NCBI GenBank assembly: GCA_009885445.1
Contig: VFKQ01000270.1
Span: 1 to 36,879 of the forward strand
Reading direction: 5' to 3'
Length of the DNA stretch: 36,879 nt
Source: Anaerolineaceae bacterium
GTDB lineage: Bacteria > Chloroflexota > Anaerolineae > Anaerolineales > Villigracilaceae
Made by a program: the position numbers and the translations under genes. Shown in pieces: positions 28,163-33,381 of this stretch (within the stretch, counting starts at the first letter, position 1; each line of letters starts with the position of its first letter). Under the pieces are notes generated by a model. The model did no database searches, was not told where the DNA came from, and saw nothing but the letters and a program-made list of their open reading frames with translations.

Positions 28163-28867
28163 ATGTCCTCCTTCCTCCCCTCCCGCCTCACCTCCCTCCG
28201 CCACGCCCTGCGCGGACTGTGGCACGCCCTGCGCACCCAGCGCAACGCGTGGATTCACAGCGCCGTCAGCCTCGTGGTCGTCGGCCTCGGTATTTGGCTG
28301 ACCCTCCCCGCGCGTGACTGGGCCGTGCTGATTCTCACCATCGCCATGGTCTTCACCGCTGAATTCATCAACACCGCCATCGAAGCCGTGGTAGATTTGG
28401 CGACATCCGAACATCACCCGCTCGCCAAAGTCAGCAAGGACGTGGGCGCGGCCGCGGTGCTCGTGCCCGCCGTCGCCGCGGTGTTGATCGGGCTGTTGAT
28501 TCTCGGTCCGCCGTTGCTGGCGAAAATTTCCAGCTTGAGTCAGCCGCAAGCGCAGTCGAATCAATTGGCCTTCAAAGGCATGGAATTATATTCATGGCAA
28601 AATTCTGCGGGCGAGTGGCAATACATTTTGCTCCCGGGCACCAATCGCGGAAAAACATTTGAAGAAATTCAAGTCTCGCCGCTTGATTTGGACGGCATCA
28701 AAACCGCCCTCGCCGCGCTACCCGAAGGCGAATCCGTTTTTTGGACGAACAATGTTTTCGACACCGCATCCAATCAAACAATCAGCCTGCCCTTCCCGTC
28801 GCAAGCAATTGTCAACGAAATCAAAGACCTTGCCGGCTTACACAACATAAATTTATCCCTGCCCTAA
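28163..28867 (+). CDS. dgkA: Diacylglycerol kinase (DgkA-like) with an additional C-terminal domain
   Basis: ALRTQRNAWIHSAVSLVVVGLGIWLTLPARDWAVLILTIAMVFTAEFINTAIEAVVDLATSEHHPLAKVSKDVGAAAVLV is diagnostic; about 110 further residues follow the last TM helix. Confidence 0.92.
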   Translation: MSSFLPSRLTSLRHALRGLWHALRTQRNAWIHSAVSLVVVGLGIWLTLPARDWAVLILTIAMVFTAEFINTAIEAVVDLATSEHHPLAKVSKDVGAAAVLVPAVAAVLIGLLILGPPLLAKISSLSQPQAQSNQLAFKGMELYSWQNSAGEWQYILLPGTNRGKTFEEIQVSPLDLDGIKTALAALPEGESVFWTNNVFDTASNQTISLPFPSQAIVNEIKDLAGLHNINLSLP

Positions 28868-30322: not shown

Positions 30323-32719
30323 ATGGGCGCAAAAAATTTGTTCGGATTGGGCAAGAAGGATTCAAACCCCGAGCAGGCCGCGCCAGCGGACCCTGCCGCT
30401 CAGGCCGCGCCCAAAGCGGGTACGCCCGCTTTAGTGGAGGCCGAACACGCGCTGGAGAAAGTAAAGGAAGCTGTCGCGCAGGCAACGGCAATTGTCGCTG
30501 AATCCGCAACAAAGTCCGCGCCGTTGCGGCCTGTCGTCTTGCCGCATGCTTTTGTCATCATGCCCTTCGGAAAAAAGAAAGGCGCAGATGGGCAGGTCTT
30601 CGACTTCAACGCAATCTATAACGATCTGATCAAGCCCTCGCTGATTATGGCGGGCTTTGAACCGTTCCGCGCTGACGAGGAAACCAAAAGCGGCGACATC
30701 CTGACCGACATGTTCCAGGAATTATTGCTGGCCGACCTGGCCCTGGTAGACATGAGCATTGACAACGCCAACGTTTTTTATGAACTCGGCATCCGCCATG
30801 CGTTTCGCAAACGTGGCATCGTCCACATTCAAGCGGGCCGCGCTTACATGCCTTTTGATGTGTTCAACGTGCGCACCATCCCCTACCATATCGCCCCCGA
30901 GGGCGTGCCCGACCCGTTGTTTCTTGGCAAAGATTGCGTGACCATCGCGCGCGTGGCACGCGATACCTGGGCCTCAGACAGCGAGTCTGTGCACAGCCCT
31001 GTGTTCAACTTGCTGACCGGCCTGCAGGAACCTGACCGCAAAACATTGCGCACGCCGCTGGCCACGGGCTTCTGGCGCGAATATAACGATTGGAAAGAAC
31101 GCGTTGCGATTGCCCAGCGCCGCAAACGCATCGGTGATATTTTGTTGCTCACCGAAGAGATTCGCAACCCGCTGATCAAAGAGGAAGCCATCAACGAAGC
31201 CGGCAAGGCCATGGAAAATCTGGGCCTCAACGAACTGGCCCTCGACCAGTTCCGCCGTGGCATCGAACTCAACCCGGGCAATCTCGAATTTCGACGCAAG
31301 GAATCCTTCCACCTCAATCGCCTGGGCCGCGTAGACGAGGCCATCGTCAAACTCGAAAGCCTGCTCACTGACGCGCCAGACGATCAGGAGGCCATGGCTT
31401 ACCTCGGGCGTATCTACAAAGAAATGTGGCTCGACTCATGGAAAGACCTGCCCGATAAAAAATTGCGTTTGAAGACCGCCTTTGAAACTTATCACTGGTT
31501 ACTGAAGAGCGCCACCACCTACCTGCGCGCGTATCGCACAAATTTACATGAGTACTACCCGGGCGTGAACGCGCTGACCCTGGCCACCATCCTGATTCAA
31601 CTGGCGCAGAAATTCGAAAATCCGCAGGATCGTGATCCTGAGATTGCCCGGCTGGTCGAAATCATGGACGAACTGCGCGGCTCGCTGATCTTCGCCCTCG
31701 AAACAAAAGCCGAAGACGACAACGCCGAATACTGGACGCTGGTCTCGCTGGCCGAACTGCGCGTGCTGACCGCCAAAAAAGTGGAGGGCGTGGTGCGCGC
31801 CTACCGCAAAGCGCTGACCGCCTCGCGGCGTAATCAATTCTTCCTGCAATCCTCAATCAAGCAACTCGAGATTTTGCACGGCCTCGATATGCGCACCGAA
31901 TTTGTGACCGCTGGCATGCAAGTGCTAAATGAAGAACTGGCGCGCATTCAAGCAGATGAAAAACAAGTCAAGTCACCCGCCGCCAGCGCCCTTGAATCAC
32001 CGCGCAAGAAAAGACGTTCCTCAAAAAGCCCGGCGGATGTCTTCCTGTTCACCGGCTACATGGTGGACTATGCGGGCAAGGAAATCTCCAACTTCCCCAA
32101 AGAACGCGAAGCCGAAGTGCGCGCCGACATTGCCAAGCGCCTCGACAAACTTAACGCCGGCTCTGAAGACCTGGCTTTCGTGGCTGGTCTCTCCGCCGGA
32201 AGCGAGCTGATCTTCGCCGAGTTGTGCGCTGAGCGCGGCATTCATTTGGAGGTACACCTGCCTCTGCCCGAGGCCGCTTACGTGCCCGAATTCGTCTCGC
32301 CTGGCGGTGAGGAGTGGGTCGAGCGCTTCTACAAGATTCGCTCCAACCCCTTTGTTGAAGAAGTCTATCAGTCCGATACCATCGGTCCACCTGCCGAGGG
32401 CATGGACCCCTATCGGCGCAACAACCGCTGGGCCTTGTACTCCGCGATGTTACGCGGCAAAGACCGCCTGCACCTCATCGCGCTGTGGGACGGTAAAGCC
32501 GGCCGCCCGCGTGACCGCGACGCGCAGTTGGTGCGCAACATGGTCAACCTCGTCCGCGACACCGGCGGAAAAGTGGAACACATCAATTCTGCAAAATTCT
32601 CGCACACAGGTTACGACGCGCTCGAAGACCTGCTCGGTGATTATTCCTCGCTGGTGCGTTCGTCGGCCACGAAAAAACAGACGGTGGCAAAACGCGTCCC
32701 GAAGAGCAACCCGCAATAA
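30323..32719 (+). CDS. Multidomain protein: MPFG-type deoxyribosyltransferase/DRHyd-like domain, TPR/TRAFs-binding-like scaffold, C-terminal SLOG-like domain
   Basis: HAFVIMPFGKKKG...FNAIYNDLIKPSLIMAGFEPFRADEETKSGDILTDMFQELLLADLALVDMSIDNANVFYELGIRHAFRKRG; TPR-like ALDQFRRGIELNPGNLEFRRKESFHLNRLGRVDEAIVKLESLLTDAPDDQEAMAYLGRIYKEMW; C-terminus FLFTGYMVDYAG...AFVAGLSAGSELIFAELCAERGIHLEVHLPLPEAAYV. Confidence 0.82.
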   Translation: MGAKNLFGLGKKDSNPEQAAPADPAAQAAPKAGTPALVEAEHALEKVKEAVAQATAIVAESATKSAPLRPVVLPHAFVIMPFGKKKGADGQVFDFNAIYNDLIKPSLIMAGFEPFRADEETKSGDILTDMFQELLLADLALVDMSIDNANVFYELGIRHAFRKRGIVHIQAGRAYMPFDVFNVRTIPYHIAPEGVPDPLFLGKDCVTIARVARDTWASDSESVHSPVFNLLTGLQEPDRKTLRTPLATGFWREYNDWKERVAIAQRRKRIGDILLLTEEIRNPLIKEEAINEAGKAMENLGLNELALDQFRRGIELNPGNLEFRRKESFHLNRLGRVDEAIVKLESLLTDAPDDQEAMAYLGRIYKEMWLDSWKDLPDKKLRLKTAFETYHWLLKSATTYLRAYRTNLHEYYPGVNALTLATILIQLAQKFENPQDRDPEIARLVEIMDELRGSLIFALETKAEDDNAEYWTLVSLAELRVLTAKKVEGVVRAYRKALTASRRNQFFLQSSIKQLEILHGLDMRTEFVTAGMQVLNEELARIQADEKQVKSPAASALESPRKKRRSSKSPADVFLFTGYMVDYAGKEISNFPKEREAEVRADIAKRLDKLNAGSEDLAFVAGLSAGSELIFAELCAERGIHLEVHLPLPEAAYVPEFVSPGGEEWVERFYKIRSNPFVEEVYQSDTIGPPAEGMDPYRRNNRWALYSAMLRGKDRLHLIALWDGKAGRPRDRDAQLVRNMVNLVRDTGGKVEHINSAKFSHTGYDALEDLLGDYSSLVRSSATKKQTVAKRVPKSNPQ

Positions 32720-32729
32720 GCGCGACAAT

Positions 32730-32766
32730 GACCCGTTGAAATCTGATTCAGCGGGTCGTTTTTTTT
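32730..32766 (+). terminator. Rho-independent terminator
   Basis: gacccgttgaa-atctga-ttcagcgggtc followed by gtttttttt. Confidence 0.88.
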
Positions 32767-32824
32767 CTCCAGTAAACTGAACATGCCGCAGATTAGGCGG
32801 CAACCAGTCTGCTATAATGACTCT

Positions 32825-33109
32825 GTGACGTCCACCCGACTCCTTTTCCGCGTCCACGCCATTCAGCGCATGTTTGAGCGGCGCATCACGGAAGAAAACG
32901 TGAAGCGCGTTCTGCAAGCGGGCGAAGTAATCGAGGATTATTCCGACGAGATGCCCAACGCGGGCGGAGTGATGTTGGGCAAACGAGGCAGACGTCCGTT
33001 GCATGTGGTCATGTCGGAAAATTCGCGCGAGAATGAAGTGGTCATCATCACCGTGTACGAGCCTGACCCGGCGCAGTGGAATTCAGATTTCAAGACCAGG
33101 AAACGATGA
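32825..33109 (+). CDS. DUF4258-like toxin-type protein
   Basis: LFRVHAIQRMFERRITEENVKRVLQAGEVIEDYSDEMPNAGGVMLGKRGRRPLHVVMSENSRENEVVIITVYEPDPAQW; GTG at 32825 lies 6 nt after TATAAT (32813-32818). The track start at 32783 precedes the -10 box. Confidence 0.82.
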   Translation: MTSTRLLFRVHAIQRMFERRITEENVKRVLQAGEVIEDYSDEMPNAGGVMLGKRGRRPLHVVMSENSRENEVVIITVYEPDPAQWNSDFKTRKR

Positions 33110-33381
33110 TATGCCTGATCTGCAACGAAGCAGAGACGCTTGAGGGCCGCACCTCCGTCGTGCTTGAACGAGACGAAGTTGCGCTGACCTTCCATAACGT
33201 GCCGGCGCGCATCTGTCCGCACTGCGGCGAGGCCTACGCAGATGAAGCTGTGACGGCCAACCTGCTCTGGCAAGCCGAGTCACTGGCTCTGGCCGGCGCT
33301 AAATTTGAAACGCTCGAATATACAAGCATCGAAACACAACCCACCTCCCCACCCGAAAGGAACTTACATTGGCAAAAGTAA
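33106..33381 (+). CDS. YgiT-type zinc finger protein (MqsA-like antitoxin N-domain)
   Basis: MICLICNEAETLEGRTSVVLERDEVALTFHNVPARICPHCGEAYADE with two CxxC motifs; ATGA overlap with the upstream gene. Track start 33076 is likely too early. Confidence 0.87.
   Translation: MICLICNEAETLEGRTSVVLERDEVALTFHNVPARICPHCGEAYADEAVTANLLWQAESLALAGAKFETLEYTSIETQPTSPPERNLHWQK

Follow-up and report, generated by a model that had tools for sequence, protein, structure and literature searches.

What does a protein do that joins a DRHyd-like domain, a TPR-S scaffold and a SLOG-like domain in one chain, and with which partners does it act? This question is raised by gene T, which stands alone in the stretch of 36,879 nucleotides from an Anaerolineaceae bacterium that was analyzed here (the window). 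To answer it, the three domains were examined separately, the neighborhoods of related genes were compared and the copy in the window was placed among its relatives.

Gene T and its surroundings

The ORF of gene T starts with ATG, has no internal stop codon and is present as a single copy in its own genome (3.0 Mb, 404 contigs). Since full-length orthologs with 50-70% identity are spread across the Anaerolineae, it is not a chance ORF. In comparison with the closest relative (L002, 69% amino acid identity), codon positions 1, 2 and 3 differ at 200, 121 and 526 sites, respectively, and the protein has therefore been under purifying selection. It contains the motifs VIMPFGKK, RADEETKSGDIL, ANVFYELGIRHA, FLFTGYMVDYAG and GLSAGSELIFAELCAERGI. 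An earlier sequence-only reading had described three domain regions within the one 798-aa ORF, and these were recovered by the motifs, the TPR-S score, profile matches to DNPH1/Rcl and a Rossmann model of the C-terminus. The linker that precedes them is only 31% identical to that of the nearest relative, as compared to 91% for the DRHyd-like domain. The positions of all features are compiled in Table 1.

Table 1. Features of gene T, with positions counted from the first nucleotide of the window
Feature	Position	Strand	Basis
Gene T, 798-aa DRHyd-like / TPR-S / SLOG-like protein	30323..32719	+	ORF, Pfam hits, full-length orthologs
Residues 1-70, Ala-rich, low-confidence linker	30323..30532	+	pLDDT <50 over residues 1-71
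DRHyd/NDT-like domain under the strongest constraint (residues 72-200)	30536..30922	+	PDB profile matches, invariant residues, constraint
M130 codon, aligned with second catalytic acid of DNPH1	30710..30712	+	HMM alignment; M130 invariant
E154 codon in the YELG motif; pairs with the YELG Glu of DNPH1 and is the candidate nucleophile	30782..30784	+	Invariance, alignment
Residues 245-549, helical scaffold resembling TPR-S / ASK central regulatory region	31055..31969	+	PF20308, PF13281, 5ulm match, all-helical model
Residues 571-762, SLOG-like Rossmann domain	32033..32608	+	AF2 core pLDDT ~90, Foldseek
Intrinsic terminator, 14-pair stem and T-run	32727..32768	+	Terminator check

In the window, gene T is flanked by a divergent SMR transporter gene upstream and a DUF4258/MqsA-like pair downstream. 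The terminator that had been assigned to it was found; the promoter of its own, postulated from a -10 element, did not rise above chance, with one sigma-70-like site found and 1.1 expected. Directly past the terminator (32783-33381) lie the DUF4258 gene and, overlapping it, a gene for a YokU/MqsA-like zinc-finger protein (weak matches below the cut-off), which are likely a toxin-antitoxin-type pair. In the diacylglycerol-kinase-like gene at 28163-28867, conservation in the genus extends over the first ~93 residues, but for the next ~140 residues of the window copy no counterpart was found at this locus in relatives.

The N-terminal DRHyd-like domain

A profile of the N-terminal domain built from 15 sequences was compared with the PDB. 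DNPH1/Rcl accounted for 12 of the 14 matches (E=0.002-0.07, the best being 0.002), and human ASK1 (8qgy) was matched at only E=0.66. In the Pfam scan T gave no NDT match, and a diverged relative matches Nuc_deoxyrib_tr only below the cut-off. The domain is modeled with moderate pLDDT in the full-length protein and is the most constrained one, with 91% identity to the nearest relative versus 69% for the other domains. E154 of the YELG motif is invariant across the aligned members, as are R116-A117-D118, D143, N148, N150, F178 and D179. The second catalytic acid of DNPH1, which we take to be D80 in the numbering of the human enzyme, is Asp in the wild-type chains and A or N in 8rpt/8rps. In one local HMM alignment it pairs without gaps with M130 of T, and Met is found here in every aligned member. 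Because of this Met, and as far as the alignment goes, it appears doubtful that T hydrolyzes deoxynucleotides in the manner of DNPH1; chemistry that needs the Glu only, as in TIR NADases, is conceivable. The earlier suggestion that one end of the protein could make or cleave a nucleotide and the opposite end sense it stays a conjecture, with E154 invariant and Met in place of the second acid. PADLOC 2.0 matched T weakly to a TIR-effector model (E=0.006), and relatives of the N-terminal domain match its 'TIR effector' model as well.

Genes with a DRHyd-like N-terminal domain (31-36% identical), annotated as 'hypothetical', are also present in Staphylococcus and Streptococcus phages (records H41-H60). 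A genus-mate lacking T carries a stand-alone DRHyd-like gene that adjoins a DRHyd-like/FGE-sulfatase fusion (L153; G064 contig 51, 2021-3889). T relatives were not found in the viral contigs. The annotated phages have only the N-terminal domain in common with T. The idea that T is a phage gene was rejected.

The TPR-S scaffold and its relation to ASK

The central region matches the TPR-S family PF20308 with E=6.5e-16 (59.2 bits, cut-off 27.6) and MAP3K_TRAF_bd (PF13281) with a score of 27.0 at a cut-off of 24.1. Across the phylum, matches to PF20308 outside the family of T are mostly weak and resemble those of generic TPRs. A profile of DRHyd plus TPR-S, drawn from Chloroflexota, Pseudomonadota, a 'Deltaproteobacterium' and Campylobacterota, matched the crystal structure of the ASK1 central regulatory region (5ulm) with E=2.5e-8 over 235 positions, which was the top-scoring match once engineered consensus-TPR proteins were set aside. 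The resemblance of the middle part to the TRAFs-binding/TPR scaffold of ASK kinases, noted earlier by eye, is thus supported by both the Pfam match and the profile match to 5ulm. Burroughs and Aravind (2020, J Bacteriol) reportedly proposed the TPR-S scaffold and linked it both to DRHyd, to which it is coupled, and to ASK. In ASK1, the TPR domain passes changes of the N-terminal domain on to the kinase according to structural work (PMC10972558), and a bacterial origin of ASK signalosome components is cited in PMC8195603. No kinase family is among the Pfam hits of T, and a function as a kinase was rejected.

The C-terminal domain

Foldseek searches of the PDB with the whole model were dominated by TPR proteins without usable superposition, and the C-terminal domain was folded alone. 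AlphaFold gave a confident alpha/beta Rossmann fold (core pLDDT ~90). The SLOG domain of ThsA bound to 3'cADPR (7uxs) was matched with a Foldseek probability of 0.97, but with E=0.007 and TM scores of 0.33/0.41, and a LOG-like molybdenum-cofactor carrier protein (2iz7) with a probability of 0.96, a modest E-value and poor global superposition. A trimethylamine methyltransferase, the top match by E-value, was discarded as a chance alignment (rmsd 14). The whole T model matched a phage DprA-like protein with a TM score of 0.69 and an rmsd of 4.6; judged by its length, this match must cover a Rossmann part of T, presumably the C-terminal domain.

Among the PDB sequences the C-terminal profile found nothing significant. 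The YAcAr family of Pfam scored 13.0 bits on T (cut-off 28.2, E=0.09) and had no match in 41 related genomes; the GGASGGDLLFAE motif of the alphaproteobacterial members resembles YspA/YAcAr, with a Pfam score below the cut-off. The domain is therefore called SLOG-like here: the model suggests such a fold, and the Pfam sequence score stays below the cut-off. The earlier description of a Rossmann-like C-terminus resembling SLOG agrees with the confident model and with the presence of ThsA SLOG among the most probable Foldseek matches.

Relatives of gene T lie in a conserved operon

For the comparison of neighborhoods, about 60 loci of relatives were collected. In the family of T, an operon of fixed order is usually found in which genes for a C39-like peptidase with SH3 (~468 aa), a TIR-WD40 protein (~1,005 aa) and a double SLATT protein (~446 aa) are followed by T as the last gene. 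The gaps are tight, with medians of 14-16 bp. The double SLATT protein consists of DUF4231/SLATT_3 and then SLATT_1, the latter scoring above its cut-off. The TIR domain of the TIR-WD40 protein retains the glutamate of the CxxEL motif and matches the ThsB models of PADLOC. For T and the double SLATT partner PADLOC 2.0 has no model, and no SLATT model was hit.

Among 152 genomes of the family, T is present in 56 and the SLATT gene in 60, including all 56 genomes with T (Fisher p 3e-37, uncorrected for relatedness). The SLATT gene lies directly upstream of T on the same contig and strand in 54 of these 56 genomes; of the other two, one is interrupted by a contig break (G521) and one is the genome of the window itself. 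The search for recurring neighbors that the sequence-only reading had recommended as a check identifies the double SLATT gene as the regular companion of T. The same reading had taken T to be monocistronic, with an effector that would be intramolecular or encoded elsewhere. This is true of the window copy only, as SLATT is encoded directly upstream of T or fused to it in relatives.

SLATT does not always need T, because four genomes contain SLATT operons without it: C39/TIR-WD40/SLATT on one contig (G337), TIR-WD40/SLATT in the same genus (G421) and C39/SLATT (G428 and G491), seen at loci L178, L179, L180 and L152. T is thus an optional module of SLATT operons. Of 40 loci, 29 carry next to the operon a conserved gene of ~156-195 aa without a Pfam family; it lies downstream of T on the opposite strand (e.g. 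L009, 10414-10998, -).

SLATT fusions and wider relatives

A second family of the class, f124, encodes SLATT-SLATT-DRHyd-TPR-S-SLOG as one protein of ~1,100 aa at all five loci examined, with a frameshift inside the SLATT part at one of them. The linker at the N-terminus of T corresponds in position to the stretch between SLATT and DRHyd in these proteins. That T and SLATT work as a single machine is best supported by this natural fusion. In family f9, SLATT is located 16 bp upstream of T (L168) or nearby, together with TIR-WD40 (L167).

Proteins with all three domains also occur in Reyranella (Alphaproteobacteria, ~32%). On a plasmid of Rhizobium leguminosarum, SLOG-like and DRHyd-TPR-S proteins are encoded by adjacent genes ~4 bp apart near patatin and DUF4231 genes. 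The Rhizobium plasmid locus (L078, CP050566.1, 262-12609) holds two stand-alone SLOG-like, two DRHyd-TPR-S, DUF4231, patatin and DUF3380 genes and represents a split version of T. DRHyd-TPR-S genes without the SLOG part are carried beside TIR genes by plasmids of Agrobacterium, Rhizobium, E. coli, Klebsiella, Aeromonas and Acinetobacter, and, except in Acinetobacter, also beside DUF4231/SLATT genes. A deltaproteobacterial DRHyd-TPR-S gene is followed by a TIR-WD40 gene. The earlier assignment of T to nucleotide signaling or conflict fits both its domain mix and these neighbors of its relatives, that is TIR, SLATT and plasmid islands.

In other Chloroflexota, proteins composed of RyR, TPR-S, a SLOG-like part and a nucleotide cyclase adjoin TIR genes; here RyR takes the place of DRHyd, and the cyclase that of the output. 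Such RyR/TPR-S/(SLOG-like)/adenylate-guanylate-cyclase proteins are encoded at L115 (2841-5687, -) and L116 (9088-11166, +), the latter also beside genes for CRP-type and cNMP-binding proteins. They form a separate architecture that is possibly more surprising than T.

Two other roles could be assigned to T. It could itself be the toxic effector, a DRHyd NADase or nucleotide hydrolase switched on via TPR-S/SLOG, with SLATT as a second effector. The strong constraint on DRHyd with its retained Glu and the 'TIR effector' matches of this domain and its relatives point in this direction, as does the NADase effector function of some DRHyd domains in conflict systems (PMC9503650). However, another effector, SLATT, is fused to T or encoded alongside it, the D80 position of DNPH1 is occupied by Met, and the RyR-type relatives replace DRHyd altogether, which makes this role rather unlikely. 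Alternatively, T could be an off-switch in which DRHyd hydrolyzes the TIR product and so holds SLATT shut below a threshold of the signal. Operons of C39/TIR-WD40/SLATT without T suggest a modulator, and enzymes of the DRHyd type cleave N-glycosidic bonds, but neither a SLATT fusion nor two sensor-like domains would be needed for this purpose. We consider the off-switch unlikely.

The window copy is derived and solitary

In the phylogenetic tree, the window T groups with the T of G477, which lies in an operon, as its sister (support 100/99). Since this branch falls inside an operon-bearing clade, the solitary state in the window is derived. To look at the site itself, the Nfo gene that adjoins T in the window was located in six genomes of the same genus and 18-19 kb were taken. 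YbeY and DgkA are kept beside Nfo in five of the six, and to the right of Nfo none of the window genes, T included, was found in these segments. As full-length T is present in only one of eight genomes of the genus, the window T lies in a genus-variable region. Because the other seven lack a full-length copy, a role as a housekeeping gene was rejected as well.

On contig 365 of the genome of the window, a SLATT gene is still intact. This orphan double SLATT gene precedes the opposite-strand gene that as a rule lies behind T in the family (L132, 8635-10530). This site appears to be a remnant of the family operon from which T, TIR-WD40 and C39 were lost. No close ortholog of TIR-WD40 was found in this genome, the nearest protein being ~30% identical. 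T may have moved within the genome or have been gained anew. As T is solitary, SLATT lies on a different contig and TIR-WD40 is without a close match, the system is split here and may be re-purposed or decaying.

The question thus arises whether the window T is a stranded, decaying remnant without present function. Its isolation in a variable region and the absence of TIR-WD40 and C39 from the old operon site would agree with this, and its branch is about three times longer than that of its sister (0.46 and 0.16), the extra change falling mostly in TPR-S and SLOG (~2x the unique changes of the sister) and not clearly in DRHyd. On the other hand, the ORF is intact, the codon-position differences given above indicate purifying selection over most of the divergence, DRHyd is not accelerated and the SLATT gene is intact as well. 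A functionless remnant is therefore very improbable.

The patchy distribution, i.e. T in 56 of 152 family genomes and in one of eight within the genus, likewise speaks against T being part of an ordinary stress-signaling pathway of filamentous Anaerolineae instead of defense, and so do the TIR and SLATT partners and the relatives on conjugative plasmids. Despite the homology of TPR-S to a eukaryotic stress kinase and the CRP-type regulators next to related RyR/TPR-S/cyclase proteins, such a pathway seems quite improbable.

A proposed role for T and comparison with known systems

We therefore lean towards T being the subunit that receives and processes the signal in a TIR/SLATT conflict system. 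In such a defense by cell suicide, T is probably the switch that senses a nucleotide; in the window it is found away from its partners. The WD40 part of TIR-WD40 would sense an intruder or damage, and the TIR domain would produce an NAD-derived messenger. On binding of this messenger by its TPR-S/SLOG half, T would open or assemble the SLATT membrane effector, so that the cell would be permeabilized (abortive infection). DRHyd could adjust the signal through synthesis or breakdown of a nucleotide, for which E154 would be the nucleophile, or may only bind the nucleotide. SLATT has been predicted to be a pore effector responsive to nucleotide signals and SLOG has been described as a sensor of cADPR (PMC7159879, PMC9503650), and in Thoeris TIR makes and SLOG senses cADPR variants (PMC9503650, PMC11204291). 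More tentatively, and with somewhat less than even confidence, we propose that Anaerolineae possess an undescribed four-gene, NAD-signal-gated membrane system with TIR-WD40 as generator, a C39-like peptidase, a double SLATT pore and an ASK-like DRHyd-TPR-S-SLOG controller, the pore and the controller forming one polypeptide in one family.

The TPR-S conflict systems (PF20308) of Burroughs and Aravind 2020 reportedly combine the TPR-S scaffold with DRHyd, a predicted sensing of NAD-derived signals and TIR neighbors. T likewise has TPR-S, a DRHyd-like domain and, in its relatives, TIR neighbors; the SLOG-like third domain, the fixed C39/TIR-WD40/double SLATT operon and the natural SLATT fusion are not known from those systems. 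SLATT proteins are the SMODS and SLOG-associating 2TM effectors, whose pairing with SLOG is stated in the family name. In comparison with known SLATT systems (PF18181, PF18184, PF14015), the partner of T scores above the SLATT_1 cut-off and the pairing with a SLOG or SLOG-like domain is alike, whereas SLATT is a tandem double here and the controller is DRHyd-TPR-S-SLOG, not a bare SLOG or SMODS. With Thoeris (ThsB TIR plus ThsA SIR2-SLOG), the T system shares a TIR signal maker and a partner with a SLOG or SLOG-like domain, but its output runs via SLATT and it has DRHyd, TPR-S and peptidase extras. No SIR2 was found in T or in the scanned operon proteins, and the relation is one of working alike, not of membership. 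DNPH1/Rcl 2'-deoxynucleoside 5'-phosphate N-hydrolases are the nearest solved relatives of the N-terminal domain by profile and share the YELG Glu with T, which differs in the Met aligned to D80, the multidomain context and the missing NDT hit in Pfam. The core of the animal ASK1 (MAP3K5) signalosome and T share a Rossmann-like N-terminus and, after it, TPR regions that are homologous, but T has a SLOG-like C-terminal domain and no kinase domain, and its output is probably the SLATT membrane protein.

In the literature searched, whose scope leaves aside Burroughs et al. 2015 and Burroughs and Aravind 2020, a TPR-S protein together with SLATT and SLOG is undescribed both as an operon and as a fusion. 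As far as checked, the parts and the principle of the T system are thus known, and the operon and the SLATT fusion are new.

Overall, a single window can mislead, since the copy found here is the exception that was separated from its operon. Viewed across the family, a bacterial relative of the ASK signalosome core is now tied to a concrete predicted effector, and the SLATT fusion and the regular operon make the question of sensing and switching by TPR-S directly testable. If the proposed four-gene system exists, bacteria would have an equivalent of the ASK signalosome that acts through a pore instead of a kinase.
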